64,000 nucleotides of DNA, taken from the NCBI RefSeq assembly GCF_949628265.1, contig NC_088786.1, forward strand, positions 24,325,681 to 24,389,680, in the 5' to 3' direction. A program made the position numbers and the translations under genes. Under the pieces are notes generated by a model. The model was not told the origin of the DNA. It ran no database searches and saw only the letters and a program-made list of their open reading frames with translations. Source of the DNA: Cloeon dipterum. Taxonomy: Eukaryota > Arthropoda > Insecta > Ephemeroptera > Baetidae. Positions 3,001 through 59,644 of this stretch are shown here, piece after piece (positions within the stretch are counted from its first letter, which is position 1; every line of letters starts with the position of its first letter).

Positions 3001-6000
3001 GTAAATAAATTTCGGCTTGCGGATAGTTGGGTGCCGAACGCAGAGCTGTTTTTCAATCACTCGCTGATACAAACGGCCCGATGAAAAGCGCCGCCGTGGA
3101 ATAACACGATCCACTGCGCGCAATTGATTATTTCTTTGCGGTGACAAATATCTACGAATTTGCTCATGAAAGATTTAATCTTTCGGTCATAAATTTGGAG
3201 ATAGCCTCCTCTCTTTATTTATTCTTTATCGATGTTTTAAAGAATTGTCTATTATTTTAGTTGACAGCATGATAAATTTGAACCCAAAACATTTTTTTCA
3301 ATCTAGTAAGCATTGCAACAACATTAATTGAATTAATTTTAAATTATGTCTGAAACAAATGTTTTGACTTTTATCGCAATGAAGTAGTATAGTTTATCAT
3401 TTTAGTTAAATGAAATCCTTATTTTTACTTTTGTCAACCAAAATCATGTTGGAACTTCTCTTTGGATTTTTAATGATTTAAAAGGTTTTAGATTTTTTAC
3501 AGTTAAATAGTCGCTGGTTGAAATGATTTAAGACGCCTTTAAGTATGTGGTCAAAGTGGCCTAAATGAGAGGATTTGAGCTTGTTAAATGTTTTCATGTT
3601 AATTTCAAGCTGGGTTAAAAAGTTAGTTTGTCTTTTAAATGAACAGCCCCGCATTAACCATAAAATATGAAAAAGGATAGTAAGAAATTCAGAGAAATAT
3701 TTAAAATCATCAAAAACATGATACAACTAACACTACTAACATCAAAGTCAAACAAATTTCGTTTAAATTTACCGGTTCGTATAAAAGCTTGCCTTTCAAA
3801 TTATCTCCATTAGTTGATCTAATTGCTCTTTGACAAGTGCAAGCTTTTACATTAAAAGTGCATTACTCGCTCTAAGTGCATCCTTTTATGGCACTTCACG
3901 AAAAGATACATGGATATTTGTTTTGTCCCTTGACAGTAATTGATTTATTACGCACTCACTGCGTTTTGCAATGAAGATGCATCTGATTCGAAGAAAAAGC
4001 ATCTCTCTTTTTGCACGTCAGAAAGGTCCAGACCGTAAAAAGCTGTGGCGCAAGATTCCAATCGCGCGACGTGTTCTCTACACGACGGCAATTTAAGGAC
4101 AGGAAAGCGAGAAATTACGATTCCGGCGTCGCTCGGCTGAGGTGTCAGAAAATCTTTATTTTAATTAGGAATACGCGAAGTGAGGAGATGTGTCATCGCG
4201 AGCGAAGGGTGTCTCTCGGAGCCACTTTTACGCCCATACGCAACACGATTTGCTCATTACTATGCGAAATGTAAGTGAAGAAGTTTTTTCGTGTCGGGAA
4301 GGCGCGCCTTTTCGCATGTCGGCTACCATTGTTCACGATGTGCGGCGCGCTTTAAAATATCGAGGCTGATTCAGCGCGTTTGTCTGCGCGCCGCGCAGCA
4401 TCGCCATCGCCACACATGGTCGAATTTCCTCGATCGGACGCTTTGAACTCGGCTTACACACTCCGCTCCGATAGCGTAATCTTATAATCACAGCGCGAGA
4501 CGAAAAAATTAAACGTTTTGTTCCCGGAATATCGGTTGCTAATGGAATGACTTGGGCTTTGCGTTTCTCCCGAATCATTTTTCAGCGAGACGTACAATAC
4601 CGCAGCTTTCGAGTGAAAATCTGGTTTGCGATCTCGGGTCAACGTGCCTTTCAATTTTTCCACTTTTAATAAACGCCGACCGCCCCGTTAGGCCGGCGTA
4701 TTCGTACCTGTTCCAGTTCAATTATCGAGCGAGTCATATCTGAAACTAGAACAATAAAAGCATAAGTAAACACCTTTCTTTCCCTGCAGCCCGAGTACAG
4801 AAAATGGACGGAGCGTGTAAGTGAATAAGTGATTTGCATAAAACACAACGCGCACGAAAAAGGCGATGTCTGGCTCAAATCAGTTTTTGTCCACCCCCTC
4901 GCGACCGTGACGCGCGTCCGCTATCTCTCATCCAATTTCACGCCGGATCGTTTTGATTGTGCAAAATCACTCATAACACGTGATATGTCGGTGGACGGAG
5001 AACAACAGCCCAAGACGAGAACCAGAGAATGGGAAGCGTTGCAATAGTCCTCCTAAATCAGAGTGGCGTGCTCAATTGCTGCTGTTCCCACTCGCTCGCT
5101 CCTCACAGATCTCATATAACACCAACAACCGCACCTCTTTGTTGTTATTTATAAATTGTGGCTATAAATTTGTCTACTTTATTGATTTTAAATTAGAATT
5201 CGTTTTTATGACACCTTGCTGTGGGCAGCTGGATGTCGCTCCCAAACGGCGTAGAATATGCATTCGTCGGTTTGCTCAATTGTTTCATCCTTGTAGGAGA
5301 GACTATCCCCATTCCTGCGTTCAAAGCTACGCAAGGATTGCTACAAATTGAAAAGTCCCTATTTTGCGCAAAATTTATTTTTCTTCCTTGAGAGTTACCA
5401 GTAGTGGAGGGTTGCAGATGTTATCTGAAACATTAAGCGAAAAACAGCAAATCTGACTCGCTTTTTTATTATTTATAGGACCGCAGTGTTTCAGCCACCT
5501 GTGCATTGTGTATGTATCTGCAAACCCACCTTTACCCAACCAAGGTCCGATTTATTTTCTCACTGAATTTTTGCACCTGCTAGATTGCTACCAGAAAAAT
5601 ACACACAACCATTTAATTTCAAGCCTGGTATTTAGCGCAATTAAGTAATTACAATCAGTAAAATACGTTAATGCGTTCAATTTTCTTTTTAAATGAAAAT
5701 ATGACTCACGAGCCCCGACGTCTCACATGAGTTAGCTGTCATTTTCAGCTGAGGACTACCCGCAATTGTCTGAAAGGCGTTACTTCTTTTATGAACGGTC
5801 TGCAAAACGCTATACTCAACAGTGCTGGAAGGCTGATAGCATCTCCGCGCAATCCACAATATTACACAGTAATTTGACTTTGTTTGATTTGTATCATGGA
5901 ACGTAAGACCCATTTCATTACCTTGAATTTCAGCGAAATGGAGCTGAATGAATTTATCTCGGCCTCATGTTCGTACTCAGCAATAAAACTTAGATATTTT

Positions 6001-50415: not shown

Positions 50416-50423
50416 GTTGTTCC
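50416..50423. repeat. Left target-site duplication of the hAT element
   Basis: GTTGTTCC directly precedes the terminal TAGGGTTG. The identical 8-mer follows the right end at 59637-59644. Confidence 0.93.
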
Positions 50424-50570
50424 TAGGGTTGGCAATATCAATATCGATATATCAAAAAAAATTGATATATCAAATATCATATCAGTTATCAGCCCTGATA
50501 TCTAATATATCATATCAGGGGGATATTGATATCAATTTCTGATATCAACGTCCTGATATCTGCTCAGGAA
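50424..50570. repeat. hAT left terminal and subterminal repeats
   Basis: The terminal TAGGGTTG is followed by about 140 bases made largely of GATATC, ATATCA and TGATATATCA units on both strands. These palindromic motifs are likely transposase or BED-finger binding sites, which is inference. Confidence 0.75.
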
Positions 50571-50911
50571 CCAATTTTCGAGCTCGGAGCTCAAATTCAG
50601 GTTTAGGTACTGGTACTGGCTATGGCTACTGGCTGGGTTAATGGCATTGTACGTGTTTAATAACCAATCAAATAATGGAATACTGTTTTGTTGGTAGCAC
50701 TCAATTACTACTAAGAACTGTTACCACTCCCACTCCACTTCCACACTGCTTCCATACCCGGCACACCCACTCGACCCTCCTACTTGTTGCTTGTCCTTGT
50801 TGTTGATATATGTTGATATTGACTTAAGTTTAAAGTTTTTCTTTATGTTTTTGCTTGGTCCTAAACATAAACCAATTTTTCCTCTCACGGACAGACAGTT
50901 GACAGGACACC

Positions 50912-53170
50912 ATGCCAGGCATAGCATTGCGCCGGTGCCAAATTTGTCGGTCTTCTCTAAACAGACGCTCAAGAGCGGGTCGGCCCTCACAAAATCCACC
51001 TTTGAGGATTGCTACTGAGAGAGCACACAAATTACTCGTTTCGCTAATCGTGATGGCGAATCTACCGATACGGATTGTTGAAAGCCGACAATTCAAAACT
51101 CTCTTGAAATTTTTAGCACCCTGGTATCGGGTGCCTTGCAGAGCAACGGTGAGCTTCATATAACACAATTTTTTTTGCAAATTAATGTTGTTTTTGACTA
51201 TAGATTGGAAAAGTGATTGACAAGTTGTACAGCAAAGGCGTGACTTTACTCGCAGATAAAATAAAAGATCAGAGTGTATGCCTTACGATGGATCTTGCAA
51301 CGGTGCTGCACTCAACTCGACACTTCCTAGTGGTTACTTTGCACTTTATTGACGGTAAAGATTTATTTAATTTTGAATCTGAACTCTCAACTTCCTTAAT
51401 TTTTACTTAGATTCGTCAAACAACTTAATGTCTGTGTCACTCGCTGTGAAACAATTGATGGCGCGGAGCACGGCCCCTGAACTAATTAACATAATTCGAC
51501 TGATCCTTCGCGAGTTCGGATTAAAGAAGAATCAGATAAAAAGTACTTGCTCAGACCGTGGGGCCAATATCAAAAAAGCATGTACAGATTTGTTTGGTGC
51601 AAACAAAACTGTCTTCTGTATATGCCATCTATTAGACAATGCTGTACAAACCAGTCTCTCGGAAGTCAGGCCATTGATGTCTTTCTTGAACGATGTGAAA
51701 TCGGTGCGTACCACATAATATTATTTTGCCTCAATAAATTAAATTAATCATGATATAGGTTGTCGCGTTCATCAAAAGGAGCACTACTGCAGCAAATCTG
51801 CTGCGGAAGTATCAATTAGCTGACGGACGGATGTACTCAATGTGCTTAATGCCCATCCAGTCTGTGGCTACGAGGTGGAACAGTGTTCTGCATTGCACTA
51901 AAAGATATATTTTGCTCCATCCTTACATAAATAAAGTGCTGCAGGACTCTTCACTGTCGTCTTCTAATCCACCGCCAGTTATTCTTCAAGAGTGTATCAA
52001 AACTTTGGATGAAATAATCAAAGTTCTGGAGCCAGTTGAAAACTGTACTCTTACATTTTCCTCAAGCAAAAACTGGACTGGAAGTTTAGCTGTCATCGCT
52101 TTCAAGAGCTTGGCGCACACGATTAAGAATACTAATGTGACTGAGCCTGTTGCCAAAAAATTCAAAGATGCACTGCTCAAGAATTTGGGCAACCTAAATG
52201 CGCACGTGGAGGACAACATCTTGTTAGGTGCAGCAAACGTGCTTGATCCAAGGTAATTTTTTAGCACAATTTTTATGAAATTTGTTGTCATTATATATTA
52301 GTCTGCGCTTCATTGACTTTCTTTGCTTGAACTTTCATTTTAATGTGGTAAATTCTGATAAAAAATGTCCTTTAAAATAATGGGCTAACATCGTGTGTTA
52401 TTTCATTATGTATAGAATTTTTTTAAGTTTATCATCTTAAACAAATTTAAGTTAATTGAAAGGCAAAATAATATGGATCTAACTATCATAAAGATTGAAT
52501 TTACCTTCACACTTCAAATGTGGTTAAATTGTTCTATTTTTATCAAAAATTCAATAATTAAATGCATTACTACTTACAGTTGCAAATTCTTTTAAATAAT
52601 TTTTATTATAAATATTTAATTAAATGATAATTAATTCAGATTCAAGGGTGCATCTTTGACAAAAGAACAATACGCGAAAGCAATTGGCTTGATCAAAGTG
52701 GACGTGGAGCAGGCTAAGGAAAGAGGAAATAATGGTGCTGATTCAGAAAATTTACCATTCCTGGATGACAGGTAAGCATATAATATGTTTCTCTTTTATT
52801 TCATGCACTATATATTTTTCTGAACAGCTGCGAGGATATTTTGATGAGCTATTTTCAAGCAAAGTCCCCTCTGCCAAAAAGAGCAAGAACTCAAGATGAA
52901 ATCAATGAGTACCTAAATAGCCCCCTCGAACCGTATCAATGTTCACCAAACGAGTGGTGGGATCTTCATGAATCTGATTTCCCCAGGCTTTCGGTCATCT
53001 CCAAGAGTTTTCTTAAGATCCCACCTTCATCAGTAGCCTCTGAAAGGGTTGTATCTAGCATTAACTTGGTATTAAAAGCTGAAAAAAGTAGGATGCTCTC
53101 TCAACGTTTGGCCAGACTTATCTTTTTGAGAAACTTGCCTGAAACATTTTGGCAAGGCCTTATTTCATGA
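50912..53170 (+). CDS. hAT transposase (catalytic gene of the element)
   Basis: This is a predicted DDE transposase that cuts and pastes the element. Exons are 50912-51148, 51204-51354, 51411-51703, 51759-52252, 52640-52771 and 52828-53170, joining to 549 residues with all phases closed. The ATG follows an in-frame TGA twelve bases upstream. The N-terminal RIVESRQFKTLLKFLAPWY block is the usual hAT region before the catalytic core. Candidate acidic residues are D109 (CLTMD), D178 (CSDRGAN) and E321 (LEPVENCT). The C-I-C-H motif near 199-202 and T-R-W at 265-267 are standard hAT landmarks. The last exon carries the dimerisation domain, with WW, FPRL, KIPPSSVASER and a final LIFLRN. The usual N-terminal BED finger is not seen, and only about 490 bases of element lie upstream. 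D109 is followed by LATV and not the usual GWT. Confidence 0.9.
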
Positions 53171-53295
53171 ATTGCGTAATACTTCCATTCCATGCTTAAC
53201 CTATGATTATTAAATACAACTTAATCAAAAATACATATTTTTTGGGATTGTATTATTTCGTGGGATTATCACCTTCAAAAAAAATTTAAGGAAAG

Positions 53296-55008
53296 GAGCA
53301 ACATTTATATTCATTAATGAGGTGAGCTAAACAAATTCTGGTCTTTAATGAATTATTAAAAATATTTTAATTTTTAGTAATCGTTGGTCGACTGCTGTTT
53401 GGGAGATGTCAGCAGAGATGCTCTAATCTCTTCCCTGTAAGCCCCAACAACAAGAAGGATGCTTAAAGAAGCAACATTTATATTCATTAGTGAGGTGAGC
53501 TAAACAATTTCTGGTCTTTAATGAATTATTAAAAATATTTTAATTTTTAGTAATCGTTGGTCGACTGCTGTTTGGGAGATGTCAGCAGAGATGCTCTAAT
53601 CTCTTCCCTGTAAGCCCCAACAACAAGAAGGATGCTTAAAGAAGCAACATTTATATTCATTAGTGAGGTGAGCTAAACAATTTCTGGTCTTTAATGAATT
53701 ATTAAAAATATTTTAATTTTTAGTAATCGTTGGTCGACTGCTGTTTGGGAGATGTCAGCAGAGATGCTCTAATCTCTTCCCTGTAAGCCCCAACAACAAG
53801 AAGGATGCTTAAAGAAGCAACATTTATATTCATTAGTGAGGTGACTAAACAATTTCTGGTCTTTAATGAATTATTAAAAATATTTTAATTTTTAGTAATC
53901 GTTGGTCGACTGCTGTTTGGGAGATGTCAGCAGAGATGCTCTAATCTCTTCCCTGTAAGCCCCAACAACAAGAAGGATGCTTAAAGAAGCAACATTTATA
54001 TTCATTAGTGAGGTGAGCTAAACAATTTCTGGTCTTTAATGAATTATTAAAAATATTTTAATTTTTAGTAATCGTTGGTCGACTGCTGTTTGGGAGATGT
54101 CAGCAGAGATGCTCTAATCTCTTCCCTGTAAGCCCCAACAACAAGAAGGATGCTTAAAGAAGCAACATTTATATTCATTAGTGAGGTGACTAAACAATTT
54201 CTGGTCTTTAATGAATTATTAAAAATATTTTAATTTTTAGTAATCGTTGGTCGACTGCTGTTTGGGAGATGTCAGCAGAGATGCTCTAATCTCTTCCCTG
54301 TAAGCCCCAACAACAAGAAGGATGCTTAAAGAAGCAACATTTATATTCATTAGTGAGGTGAGCTAAACAATTTCTGGTCTTTAATGAATTATTAAAAATA
54401 TTTTAATTTTTAGTAATCGTTGGTCGACTGCTGTTTGGGAGATGTCAGCAGAGATGCTCTAATCTCTTCCCTGTAAGCCCCAAGAACAAGAAGGATGCTT
54501 AAAGAAGCAACATTTATATTCATTAGTGAGGTGAGCTAAACAATTTCTGGTCTTTAATGAATTATTAAAAATATTTTAATTTTTAGTAATCGTTGGTCGA
54601 CTGCTGTTTGGGAGATGTCAGCAGAGATGCTCTAATCTCTTCCCTGTAAGCCCCAACAACAAGAAGGATGCTTAAAGAAGCAACATTTATATTCATTAGT
54701 GAGGTGACTAAACAATTTCTGGTCTTTAATGAATTATTAAAAATATTTTAATTTTTAGTAATCGTTGGTCGACTGCTGTTTGGGAGATGTCAGCAGAGAT
54801 GCTCTAATCTCTTCCCTGTAAGCCCCAACAACAAGAAGGATGCTTAAAGAAGCAACATTTATATTCATTAGTGAGGTGACTAAACAATTTCTGGTCTTTA
54901 ATGAATTATTAAAAATATTTTAATTTTTAGTAATCGTTGGTCGACTGCTGTTTGGGAGATGTCAGCAGAGATGCTCTAATCTCTTCCCTGTAAGCCCCAA
55001 CAACAAGA
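53296..55008. repeat. 173-bp tandem repeat array, direct units
   Basis: Ten units, counted by TAATCGTTGG at 53378, 53551, 53724, 53896, 54069, 54241, 54414, 54587, 54759 and 54931, are spaced 172 or 173 bases. The one-base difference comes from GAGGTGAGCTAAAC versus GAGGTGACTAAAC. Units are otherwise nearly identical except the slightly diverged first one, so the array is young or homogenised. It begins about 125 bases after the transposase stop codon. Confidence 0.95.
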
Positions 55009-55480
55009 CCAACGATTACTAAAAATTAAAATATTTATAATAATTTATTAAAGACCAGAAATTGTTTAGTCACCTCACTAATGAATATAAATGTTGCTTC
55101 TTTAAGCATCCTTCTTGTTCTTGGGGCTTACATGGAAGAGATTAGAGCATCTCTGCTGACATCTCCCAAACAGCAGTCGACCAACGATTACTAAAAATTA
55201 AAATATTCATAATAATTCATTAAAGACCAGAAATTGTTTAGCTCACCTCACTAATGAATATAAATGTTGCTTCTTTAAGCATCCTTCTTGTTCTTGGGGC
55301 TTACATGGAAGAGATTAGAGCATCTCTGCTGACATCTCCCAAACAGCAGTCGACCAACGATTACTAAAAATTAAAATATTTATAACAATTCATTAAAGAC
55401 CAGAAATTGTTTAGTCACCTCACTAATGAATATAAATGTTGCTTCTTTAAGCATCCTTCTTGTTCTTGGGGCTTACATTC
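55009..55480. repeat. Inverted units of the 173-bp array
   Basis: About 2.7 units of the same repeat run in the opposite orientation. They start abruptly at 55009, where CAACAACAAG meets ACCAACGATTACT. They share differences absent from most direct units (TTACATGGAAGAG, and CTTGTTCTTGGGG), so they form their own subgroup. The last unit is truncated around 55480. Together with the direct units they can form a long fold-back. Confidence 0.93.
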
Positions 55481-55832
55481 TCTGCTGGGAGATGTCAGTG
55501 GGGCAGTTTTTCATGCGGTTGATAAACTGATCATCGAGCAGGAGGGCATGTCCAGGATAGTATATTTATTTTACTCTGTCACTTTATTTGGTGAATTTTT
55601 AATAAAAAAAAAAGAAAGTTTACTTAACTTTACTTTTATTCGTTCCTGCTTAATTTCTTTAGACAAACTCAAACAATATTACTAAACTAATTTTTAAAGT
55701 TTGTTTAAATGCGTAGAAATTTCTATATCAGTCAATTATAAAGGGTGAAAGAAATAAAATTGTAAAATATTTAGTTTCATTTTGGTTTTTACAATTTATT
55801 TCTACTTTGACTTCATTTTGTAACGATTAACA
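55481..55832. other. AT-rich spacer after the array
   Basis: No coding feature is visible. TTTATT at 55795-55800 is an AATAAA polyadenylation signal for the minus-strand gene, 33 bases after its stop codon. Confidence 0.55.
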
Positions 55833-58725
55833 TCACAAGTTGGCAGGATAATTGGCAAGGAAAGTCATCATTTGAATGTCGTCACTGCAAATATCCCTGT
55901 GGGGAACAACAACCTTCATCGAGTTCTGGCAAATCACTGAGAAGTATTTTTGTGCAATTTTGAAAAGTGGGTGACCTCTTTTGGCAAACCAAGCACTGTG
56001 CATATCCACCATATTTAATGGTACCATGGACTCCTCCATATAGCTTTTTAGGGTATGAGACATCCCAAAATGTGCTCGGCTTACGTTTGTGTTTGTGATG
56101 GCTCTTTCAGCAACTAACTGAGTCCAAAAAGATTCTAAAAAGCCTGAAACAAGGTTTTATGCGAAATAAATCAAATAATAACGTAAGAACAACACTAGCA
56201 AATTATATAAAGACAAATACCATCTCCTTTGTCCTCTTTAGTTTGTTTCTCCGCCAAAGTATTTGAGGCGTTTCTCGACGTTGATTGACTCAACTCCCGT
56301 TCAAGTCTACGAATTGCTTCAGCTCGTATTTGTGATGGCATGGTTTGATCATTCTTAACGCGATAGTCAAGCAAACTGACGAATGCGCTGAATTCAACGT
56401 CAGACGTGAAAAAGCAAGATTCAATCTCTTGTCCCACGAATTCGCTGAGCTCTTTGGCCTCCCGAGAAAGTGATTTGGTCTTTATGTCCGTCAGGAATGC
56501 TTAAACATGATGACAGATATTAATAGCACATACATTTGAAAAGAATTTAATTAAAAATATTAAATTTCTTTCAATTTTTAACTTTAAAAAAGTTTTAACC
56601 ATCTGATACTTTACCAGCAAAGAGATTTTTCAATGTCATCCACATCGATAAATGGACCTGGTTGGGCTGAATAATCGATGAAGCAAGGACCTTTTTTAGC
56701 TTCTTGAGACATTCGACTAATTCTCTGGCCGTCTTCAGCTCACTCCTACTCAACGCTTCAGCCCTCTCTGTTGTATCATGGGATGCGAGTTCAGTGTGGT
56801 GGTCGATGACAAGTTCAAACAACTCATCTGTGTCAAAACCACGTACTTTCACTTTCTCGTCTTCAGTGAGTGTTAGCAAAAACTGCTCACTGAAAGTTTT
56901 GGAAATGTTTAGATGGTCATATTAAAGCTGAATGCAATTTAATTTACCATTTTGTGAGCTTGAGGAGAGGAGCAATGCATTGCTTGAAGAATTCCAAGTC
57001 GTTGGTGTGTTGCAGGACAGTTTTCCACGCTCTTTGAAGCGCTGAGCTCAGACACACGACAATTGGGATCAAAGGCACTGCCTCGCTTCCTGCAATCAGA
57101 GCGGCTTCTTGCAATCCTGGCTCAGTGTTATCAACCAGGATAAGAGCAATTCTCCCACGGAAGATTTCAGCGTCAATTATGTAACTCATCCAGTCTGAGA
57201 TGGTGCTCATCATATCCACGCCCACTTCATCTCTCAATTCTTTCGTGGATACCACGACCTTTTGAATTGGCTTCTCTTCGTCTAAAAAAATTGGCTTGTA
57301 GAATTAATTGTGATGATGTTACAATTTACGTACAACAAAAGTAAATACTTCCTAATAGGAATTTTTTTAGATCATGAATGTGTGTCTCCACTCCAAGGGT
57401 CAGAACTGCATCGTTGTTGATGGATAGGGCAGACACAAATCTATCATATTTCAGGTGATACTCTGCACGAAAATTCTCAATGAGCTGCAAATGGGAGGGA
57501 ATTTTAAGAACAGTTGTATTCAGTAAATTTTTAAGTTTACCTCCTGTGAAGTGAAAAGGTTGTTATTTGGGCACGCACTAACAACAATTTGTTGGAAGGA
57601 GGGAGCATCAAGAATTTTTAAACTGGCAGATTGGCAAGTCAAAAATAAGTCTTTGATATATCCCAACATTGTACTTGCGTTAAGCCTTCGTGTGCCTTGA
57701 GTGAGATTTAAATTTATTGTTTTATTTTATTTATATAAATTTTCACAAAACATACCAAAACTCTCCAAGATTGACAGTTGCTTGGTTTTGCTTTTAAGTT
57801 CTTGGCGATTTTCACCAGCGGCAGGCCTCTTTCTAGATAATGCAGAAGACTGGCCACCCTCACTACAACCAATCAGCTCATCATCACTGTCTTTTTTATC
57901 TTTAGCTGTTGACTCTGTCGATGAAGTCACCTTGCCAGCTGTCAGCATCTAGAAGTGAAAAATGAATTATGAATTTACTATTAATATCAAAACTGATTCT
58001 TTCTGTTTGTACCTGTTGCTTCTTTTTCTTTGCCTCTTTCTCTTTCCAGCATATGAGGTAATAATTGAAGTGCTTGTTCTTTAGGTGTGACCACAAGTTA
58101 GATGTGTTTTCACCCAACACAACAACATTGCAAACAAGACAAACGAATTGGCATTTTTTTCCATCCTGATTGGTGTTTTTTGAGAAATACTTCTTAACCG
58201 CAGAGCCCGATGAAGTACTAGATGCACAGGTTGATTTCAAAAATAAATTACGATTGCTGGGTCCAGCAGCAGGCAGTGAAGACACAAGGTTAACTACTGG
58301 CACCTGTTTTAAAGAGAATAAAATCAAATATTTCAGCGTAATGGTTATTATGCATTTAACTTACAATAGTTCAACTTTTACAGTGATGCAAGAGTATTTT
58401 TAGCAATCAATTCACCATAATTTAAAATTTTTTACGAGCGGCCTGATTCAGTAAGCGGCCAACACTGTTCCAAAATCTTTTGTTGTTCATGCCCAGACGA
58501 ACAACTTTTGTTATTTTTTAATCTCAAAAAGTTCGTGGACGCTTACTGCATCAGCACCATAAAAACAGTATATTAGCATAGTTAAATTAATTTCAAATGT
58601 ATCTAATACATAAATTAGTTATAGTTATTTTTCACCTCTAACTCTAGGAGCGGATCATCAACATCTTCCTCAAACGAATAAATTTCGTTGTCTGCCATAA
58701 TAGTATGGTCATGCTCATCATCCAT
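55833..58725 (-). CDS. BED-finger, hAT transposase-like accessory protein
   Basis: Minus-strand exons are 58725-58636, 58303-58013, 57948-57756, 57695-57541, 57484-57349, 57281-56948, 56889-56615, 56499-56221 and 56143-55833. They join without a phase error into 687 residues. The ATG follows an in-frame TAG nine bases upstream. An acidic N-terminus (1-30) precedes a BED zinc finger with C85-x2-C88 and H103-x4-H108 (SHLKNKH). A Lys/Ser-rich linker comes next, then a body that follows the order of hAT transposases. ALILVDNTEPG resembles the second-aspartate block and VVCLSSALQ the position after it. The expected first-aspartate (T-x-D) block is not recognisable (AVLTLGVET). The C-terminus has WFAKRGHPLFKIAQKY like the dimerisation domain but lacks the usual SER signature. 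I read it as a catalytically lost hAT paralogue kept for DNA binding or regulation. A separate degenerate hAT is the alternative. Confidence 0.8.
58444..58553. repeat. Small imperfect inverted repeat in an intron of the BED gene
   Basis: TGATTCAGTAAGCGGCCA at the left and its near-complement around CGCTTACTGCATCA at the right enclose about 80 bases, with a second inner pair of TTTTGTTGTTC-like arms. It could be a tiny insertion or a structured intron segment. Confidence 0.5.
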
Positions 58726-59505
58726 GCTCTATCTCCTCGTAAAAATGCAGTCCGGCCGGCAGTCTGCCCTCTCACAACTTGAAAGATTTTCATATGAAAT
58801 GACAGCTTCAACATGATAAACACTGCACACATACCTAAATTATAATAATGGAACTAACTGTTGTAGTTATTTGGTCCACCAGGGAAGCCTTACATAAATT
58901 GCACCAATTCAGGAGTGCAAGGTGCACAGATTTCCATCAGGGCAAGGGCCCTTTCCAGCGTTTTTTTTTATTTAATAATTAATTGTCTTAATCTTATGGT
59001 GCATTCTGCATTGGTCTTATTGTTAGTGATGGTCGCAGTGCTGCCAACTTGCAACGACGTCAGATATTATGGTTGGCAATTAATTACTATCAAAATCAAT
59101 ATAATTTCTATACTAATTAAACAAGATACTTTAAGTTAAGCTTAAAAAAGTTATGTAATAATTTACTGTAACGCTACACTTTTTGAAAACTATAATTATT
59201 GAAGTCCTGAAGTTACACAGGACAGTTTAATTGACTATTGACTGTATGATGGCACGATTAAATTGTTATATTTTAAATAACGGTTGGAGCCGCCACACCC
59301 CTTATCAATTTAAGTTTAAGAGGCGCGTGAAATTTAAATTATTGAAATACTCGTTTCAAGACTGCAGAAAACCTCTATTTTCAAAATTTGTCTCATTAAA
59401 CAGATTATTTAACCAAAAAATCGGTTATTAATGCAAAAAAATCGATTTTTAGGCCTTAAAAATATCCATAACCGGTTTCAGTTCCTCCGGCAGCCATTTT
59501 TTGAT
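58726..59505. other. Right-hand non-coding part of the hAT element
   Basis: This holds the promoter and 5' flank of the minus-strand gene. I see no other coding exon and no internal terminal-repeat pair with target duplication. Confidence 0.5.
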
Positions 59506-59636
59506 TATCTGGCAATATCAACATTGATATATCAAAATTTGATATTTCTCCTGTGATATATCAATATTTTGATATCACAAATATCATATCAAATATCGAT
59601 TTTTGATGTGATTTTTTGCACTAATTTACAACCCTA
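59506..59636. repeat. hAT right terminal and subterminal repeats
   Basis: TGGCAATATCAA at 59510 repeats the left-end sequence in direct orientation. TGATATATCA palindromes and ATATC units follow, and the end is CAACCCTA, complementary to the left terminus. Confidence 0.8.
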
Positions 59637-59644
59637 GTTGTTCC
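59637..59644. repeat. Right target-site duplication of the hAT element
   Basis: GTTGTTCC directly follows the terminal CAACCCTA and is identical to 50416-50423. Confidence 0.93.

Follow-up and report, generated by a model that had tools for sequence, protein, structure and literature searches.

Introduction

The hAT transposons, such as Hermes, Ac, Tol2, and BuT2, are flanked by 8-bp target-site duplications, have short TAGGG- or CAGGG-type termini and subterminal repeats, and encode a transposase with D, D, E, CxxH, and RW motifs and a C-terminal dimerisation domain. In PMC10368747, Hermes is described as an octamer in which the BED domains of three protomers grip the left end while none grips the right end, and the BED domain is reported to be indispensable for excision in vitro. 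It was found that a 64,000-nucleotide stretch of the Cloeon dipterum genome (contig NC_088786.1, positions 24,325,681 to 24,389,680; hereafter the window) contains a transposon that shares the above hAT traits. It differs from the known hATs in two respects. The known hATs are described with the BED finger on the transposase (PMC10368747), whereas here the finger is encoded by a separate convergent gene. They are described as 2.5-5 kb in length, whereas the elements reported here are 6.0-9.2 kb.

In one assembly of this one species, comparison of the sequences demonstrates two-gene elements in four families, a split of the domains between the two genes, and hAT homology of both genes. One gene would encode a BED-less catalytic protein and the other a BED-bearing partner. 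The partner is probably a positive end-recognition subunit of a two-component hAT lineage. I also lean, by a narrower measure, towards an obligate pair, that is, a hetero-oligomeric transpososome of BED-bearing inactive subunits and BED-less catalytic subunits that would have arisen by duplication within the transposon and division of labour. No two-gene hAT was recognised in the open-licence PMC literature, as judged by titles and the beginnings of abstracts, with Repbase and subscription papers outside the scope.

Results

Ends and Copies of the Window Element

The window element (family 1) is 9213 bp in length and lies at positions 50424-59636 of the window, on contig C1 of the 190-Mb genome. 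Its ends are as follows (no strand is given for features that have none).

50416..50423: target-site duplication, left copy, GTTGTTCC (sequence read)
50424..50431, plus strand: left terminal inverted repeat (TIR), TAGGGTTG (same or similar end in the short copies examined)
50432..50593: left subterminal repeat cluster, 14 ATATCA in either orientation in 162 bp (6-mer counts)
59467..59628: right subterminal repeat cluster, 10 ATATCA in either orientation in 162 bp (6-mer counts)
59629..59636, minus strand: right TIR, CAACCCTA (sequence read)
59637..59644: target-site duplication, right copy, GTTGTTCC (sequence read)

A previous reading of the window, made from the sequence only, had claimed a perfect 8-bp target duplication and matching termini. 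The duplication was confirmed, with GTTGTTCC flanking TAGGGTTG (50424-50431) and CAACCCTA (59629-59636). The termini match exactly over 8 bp; beyond that, 11 of the first 16 positions agree. An end-pair scan of 2911 x 3274 positions ranked exactly these ends at the top with a score of 13.5, and the scores did not exceed 9.5 in 390 control windows drawn, with overlaps, from the same 64 kb. A chance duplication was rejected, since none of the 390 control windows attained the score of the element.

The left 501 bp gave at least 40 matches in the genome, at least 39 of them besides the window element, and the right 645 bp gave at least 41, at least 40 of them besides the window element (two are one locus). 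Counted by hand and given as lower bounds, at least 42 other loci match the ends of the window element, at least 36 of them at both ends; one of the loci is copy A of family 2 (see below). The window element is a real transposon with ends belonging to a family. In 20 short copies (L024-L043), the 8-bp duplication is perfect in 15 and has one mismatch in two, all with different sequences, and the pattern search gave no duplication for the remaining three. The 17 short copies with a duplication are 1178-1473 bp in length, and the ends of the short copies are TAGGGATG in some and TAGGGTTG in others. Since the short copies had no match from either genome protein search (with the catalytic or the partner query), they look non-autonomous. 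Such 1.2-1.5 kb copies are probably non-autonomous families moved by the two-gene hAT lineage. The recent activity that the sequence-only reading had suggested is partly supported; a second close full-length copy was not found in this assembly.

The Catalytic Gene

The plus-strand gene consists of the following exons.

50912..51148, plus strand: exon 1, without a BED finger (splice join, Pfam)
51204..51354, plus strand: exon 2 with the first Asp in TMDLAT, 151 nt, phase 0 on entry and phase 1 on exit (Hermes alignment)
51411..51703, plus strand: exon 3, with the second Asp in SDRGAN and CICH (Hermes alignment)
51759..52252, plus strand: exon 4, with the TRWNS motif (four-family alignment)
52640..52771, plus strand: exon 5 (splice join)
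52828..53170, plus strand: exon 6, with the catalytic Glu in SVASER and Dimer_Tnp_hAT (splice join, Pfam, Hermes alignment)

As had been predicted, the six exons join into a gene of 549 codons with GT-AG borders and no internal stop codon, and the product is identical to the NCBI protein P0001. The names given by NCBI to the two proteins of the window element are 'E3 SUMO-protein ligase ZBED1-like' and 'uncharacterized protein LOC135947991'. The catalytic protein aligns with the Hermes structures across the catalytic core and the C-terminus and keeps the triad (D109, D178, and E508) as well as CICH. I take the Asp residues of TMDLAT and SDRGAN, together with CICH and the Glu of SVASER, to be the hAT catalytic positions. 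P0002, a protein from another Cloeon source whose model is fused to a reverse transcriptase domain, matches the catalytic protein at 87% across 446 residues.

Pfam finds Dimer_Tnp_hAT only and no BED in the catalytic protein. In the list of open reading frames (ORFs), no BED-like frame was noticed in the 480 bp between the left TIR and exon 1, and a BED scan of the genome, in which 150 of the 596 candidates were scored, gave none there. A conventional hAT with an overlooked upstream BED exon in the 480-bp leader was rejected on the ORF list and on the scored candidates of the BED scan.

The Partner Gene

The minus-strand gene is convergent with the catalytic gene and consists of nine exons.

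58636..58725, minus strand: exon 1, acidic leader (splice join)
58013..58303, minus strand: exon 2, BED zinc finger (splice join, Pfam, structure match)
57756..57948, minus strand: exon 3 (splice join)
57541..57695, minus strand: exon 4 (splice join)
57334..57484, minus strand: exon 5, 151 nt, phases 0 to 1 (end inferred from NCBI P0012; an earlier model ends at 57349)
56948..57281, minus strand: exon 6, C kept and H of CxxH lost (splice join, profile alignment)
56615..56889, minus strand: exon 7 (splice join)
56221..56499, minus strand: exon 8 (splice join)
55833..56143, minus strand: exon 9 with the stop codon, degenerate hAT C-terminus without Glu (splice join, profile alignment)

The nine exons do join into the 687 amino acids of the original prediction, while the NCBI model P0012 has 692 amino acids with the exon 5 donor 15 nt further on. 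That donor is backed by a second Cloeon protein, P0013, and by the other families. The partner protein has a BED finger according to Pfam and to a match with the ZBED1 BED structure 2ct5 (E 0.0011), and no hAT domain was found in it by Pfam. In an alignment-based protein search with the partner as the query, in which about 8000 candidates were scored, P0012 and P0013, both from Cloeon, were the sole partners recovered. P0013 comes from another Cloeon source and shows 74% to the window partner. Both P0002 and P0013 are listed with a 71237-base contig, and they probably lie on the same contig.

Two-Gene Elements in Four Families

Is this gene pair peculiar to the window? Genome search with the window partner protein found two diverged loci on C2, which are copies A and B of family 2. 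Copy A is 7233 bp in length (C2:3050394-3057626; duplication TCGGTTTC; termini TAGGGATTGGTA/TACCGATCCCTA). Its catalytic gene (six exons, open, 548 amino acids; NCBI P0003 is a shorter model) and its BED gene (nine exons, open, 666 amino acids) have the same intron phases as the genes of the window element. Copy B (L069, L070, L063, and L061) is also full-length, is 99.1-99.2% identical to copy A, and is flanked by the duplication GTTCCGAC; its catalytic gene is broken by two nested insertions, one of 4971 bp and one of 12943 bp. Families 3 and 4 were reached via weaker genome matches of the window catalytic protein. Family 3 is 6048 bp in length (C1:37982342-37988389; duplication TTCCAGAA; termini TAGACATG/TAGTCATG) and both of its genes are open (691 and 564 amino acids), and family 4 is 7921 bp in length (C2:36764686-36772606; duplication CAGCCATG). 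Their end-pair scores are 13.5 and 14.5, respectively, compared with the control maximum of 9.5 in the 390 windows. In both families, the BED gene lies on the opposite strand and is convergent with the BED-less catalytic gene.

A perfect 8-bp duplication is present in all five two-gene elements (four families, five loci), which are 6.0-9.2 kb in size, and a second conserved gene lies within the same termini in all four families. The TAGGG termini are found in families 1, 2, and 4, and family 3 has TAGACATG/TAGTCATG in their place. Both genes of the window element have open frames, and so do those of copy A and family 3, although the identity between the window element and copy A is no more than 45-46% for the catalytic proteins and 31% for the partners. 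The catalytic identity is 23-28% for all other pairs of families. The family 3 partner as a genome query found its own locus only. The two-component lineage proposed by the sequence-only reading is supported by full-length elements with both genes and different 8-bp duplications, these being related families and not close copies.

Besides the two-gene elements, the genome searches with the two window proteins matched L073 and L074, which are catalytic-only pieces of other families with unconvincing ends (scores of 10.0 and 8.5). L073 is a truncated family 3 relic with the catalytic side only. L074 (C2:37047500-37057499) has, at 4896-5226, a fragment 51-64% identical to the family 2 catalytic C-terminus, with no partner match and no detectable ends; by this similarity, the fragment is a remnant of a further related family.

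These findings bear on the idea of two unrelated adjoining insertions, whose outer duplication would be coincidental or belong to one of them. Nested insertions do exist in copy B of family 2. However, both ends of the window element are from one family, and a scan of the window element found no inner termini with their own duplication (the minus-strand gene gave a control-level score of 6.5 and the plus-strand gene no candidate). The pair also recurs in families 2, 3, and 4, each with its own duplication. On the lack of inner termini and the recurrence in four families, neighbouring insertions were rejected and appear hardly credible.

There are 13 Dimer_Tnp_hAT matches in the genome: five in the two-gene elements, one in L073, one in a gene on C3, and six others. 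Five of these others, read around the domain alone, keep Glu, and the thirteenth is at C2:36672227. The C3 locus (L077; C3:19158300-19162200) has a same-strand BED and hAT-derived gene with the catalytic E changed to K, and it looks host-domesticated. It was rejected as a control for conventional single-gene hATs on account of this BED gene with the E to K change. For the one of the six others that lies on C5, there is a same-strand BED match some 7 kb upstream. Dozens of zf-BED-like matches occur in long open frames at about 28.7-31.6 Mb of C4, which is probably a C2H2 zinc-finger gene cluster.

Division of Domains and Subterminal Repeats

The D, D, CxxH, RW, and E residues are kept in the catalytic proteins of all four families, which have the TRWNS motif in common. 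Of the six proteins scanned with Pfam, the three catalytic ones gave Dimer_Tnp_hAT (PF05699) but not BED, and the three partners gave BED but not a hAT domain. For family 4, the hAT domain and the BED are genome matches on opposite strands. The elements have the 8-bp duplication, short TIRs, the triad with CxxH and RW, PF05699, and the subterminal repeats of hATs. An N-terminal BED finger on the hAT transposase itself was not found in the catalytic proteins, and in place of a single gene of 2.5-5 kb there are two genes in 6.0-9.2 kb. The comparison of the families demonstrates a domain split, with the opposite strand encoding the finger that a hAT transposase would be expected to carry.

In all four families, family-specific repeats are enriched at both ends and rare inside. 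In the 162 bp at each terminus, there are 14 and 10 copies of ATATCA, counted in both orientations, in the window element (interior 5) and 17 and 11 in copy A (interior 6). TATCGA in family 3 and TACCGA in family 4 each occur five times at either end and are absent from the interior. In shuffled sequences, the highest count of any 6-mer at both ends was 4. It would be natural for the partner to bind these subterminal repeats because the Hermes BED domain is proposed, and stated in section titles, to bind subterminal repeats (PMC10368747).

The partner could also be an element-encoded inactive transposase that acts as a repressor or titrates, sitting on the ends and limiting transposition, while the catalytic protein finds the ends by another domain. 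Inactive transposase derivatives often act as repressors. Moreover, the N-terminus is short and basic, and could bind DNA, in all catalytic proteins except that of family 4, where the 5′ end of the gene is not resolved. However, a repressor role would not demand that the catalytic protein lose its finger, and a BED finger was found in none of the four catalytic genes, though it is expected on a free-standing hAT transposase according to PMC10368747. Thus, I consider the repressor role unlikely and prefer the partner as an end-recognition subunit.

The Partner as a Disabled hAT Transposase

The minus-strand gene had been called a BED-finger, hAT-like gene. The BED finger stands, and the description can be taken further: by its alignments, the partner is a degenerate, disabled hAT transposase holding the finger that the plus-strand gene lacks. 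When the five partner bodies without the BED part (four families and P0013) were pooled, the profile alignment with hAT transposases reached a probability of 97.7% over 423 columns. The values were 90.4% for families 1 and 2 with P0013, 94.4% for family 3, and 95.9% for family 4, and the alignments span 423-471 columns. The controls gave at most 1.9% for 24 shuffles and at most 0.6% for five reversed sets. At the aligned position of the final E, the partners have a gap, K, or S. In CxxH, the C is kept while the H is changed to S, S, or D. The first Asp column has G, Q, and D and the second has D, Q, and G for families 1 and 2, family 3, and family 4, respectively. No partner keeps the whole triad. 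A stricter statement, according to which no partner has either Asp, was dropped, since single acidic residues remain in some.

The column of the first Asp lies in an exon of 148-154 nt that is entered in phase 0 and left in phase 1 in all eight genes. Its length is exactly 151 nt in each of the partner genes (by the NCBI model for the window element) and in two catalytic genes. The additional 5′ exons of the partner carry the BED finger. The shared exon and intron phases argue for a common origin of both genes, and I infer that the pair arose by duplication.

Could the minus-strand gene instead be a captured host BED-domain gene or a passenger? A host-like BED and inactive hAT gene is indeed present on C3. 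Nevertheless, the same type of gene in the same orientation is found in four families, its introns are common to the catalytic gene, and the partner dN/dS between copies A and B is about 0.31-0.44 (21 differing codons). The passenger was rejected on the shared introns and the recurrence, and capture from the host is quite improbable. Between copies A and B, the partner gene has 11 nonsynonymous and 10 synonymous codon differences (P of 0.009 to 0.05 depending on the assumed transition bias), and the catalytic gene has six and five, which is not significant (212 nt of copy B is unaligned). These codon differences are a weak sign of constraint on the partner gene.

Several observations weigh against a degenerate transposase that serves as a subunit in one lineage. 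The window partner alone gave a probability of 39%, P0013 alone 40%, and the copy A partner alone only 0.2% against hATs. The family 3 partner showed 0.6%, that is, no detectable similarity, against the partners of families 1 and 2, and the family 4 partner showed 58% in the BED part only. An acidic residue is left at the first Asp in family 4 and at the second in the window element, and when the 151-nt exon is aligned without gaps, the place of the first Asp is D in family 3 and E in copy A. Protein searches, with about 8000 candidates scored each, found no partner relatives outside Cloeon, and the gene model of P0013 lacks the BED exon. In family 4, the catalytic gene has an apparent frameshift and a 5′ end that is not resolved, and one splice junction of the partner gene is not resolved. 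Two AlphaFold models are of low confidence (pLDDT 30 and 35).

Since the similarity between the partners of different families is low, a single origin of the split is unproved. In the tree, the four catalytic proteins group at 94/93, which is below the star level of the program, and there are long-branch warnings for families 3 and 4. With this moderate support and the long branches, a single origin is likely, yet unproved. The next neighbour of the four catalytic proteins is P0004 (98/95). This public protein from a 1977-bp contig is recorded as a hAT transposase, and no BED domain is listed for it; it may come from a cut contig or from another split element.

Palindromic Array between the Genes

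One part of the window element lies outside the shared architecture.

53292..55477: palindromic array of 172/173-bp units between the genes

About 2.2 kb of the 9.2 kb is this palindromic tandem array of a 173-bp unit, with nine full units one way, two the other, and partial units. Its inverted arms are up to 471 nt in length at 98%. A genome search found the unit only in the window element. Read-through transcripts across the array could form long hairpins.

Discussion

The window element would be an autonomous-looking cut-and-paste hAT transposon. An ancestral BED-bearing hAT transposase gene was probably duplicated within the element in convergent orientation, after which one duplicate would have retained the catalytic core and lost the BED exons, and the other would have retained the BED exons and lost catalysis. 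In the mechanism that I consider most likely, the BED-bearing inactive subunit would bind the subterminal repeat arrays at both ends and recruit or co-assemble with the BED-less catalytic subunit, which would cut at the TAGGG termini and insert the element with an 8-bp duplication. The hetero-oligomeric function, the protein-protein interaction, and the need for both proteins are what I infer. Dividing end recognition and catalysis between subunits is compatible with a Hermes-like assembly. If the BED finger and the active site are on different subunits, these elements may be a natural experiment on the question of end recognition in Hermes. If so, end recognition and chemistry would be separable onto different protomers, the elements would clearly illustrate how a gene duplicated within a transposon can subfunctionalise, and the targeting and catalytic halves of a transposition system could be studied apart.

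How do these elements compare with other systems of two genes? In the RAG-like transposons, the RAG2-like protein is unrelated and the transposase is of another superfamily. The second protein of PIF/Harbinger is not known to be a degenerate transposase copy, whereas here it appears to be one. PIF/Harbinger is alike in having two element-encoded proteins, both of which are needed there (PMC2836001) and would be needed here. In the RAG-like transposons, the catalytic and accessory genes are likewise convergent (PMC7204232). In KolobokP, a second gene similarly lies downstream of the transposase gene and on the opposite strand, but this gene encodes a His-Me finger nuclease (PMC9587614). Finally, the domesticated hAT derivatives ZBED and CGGBP resemble the partner in having a BED finger on a hAT-derived protein with a role other than that of a transposase (PMC8097297); they are host genes, whereas the gene here remains in a transposon beside its catalytic partner.

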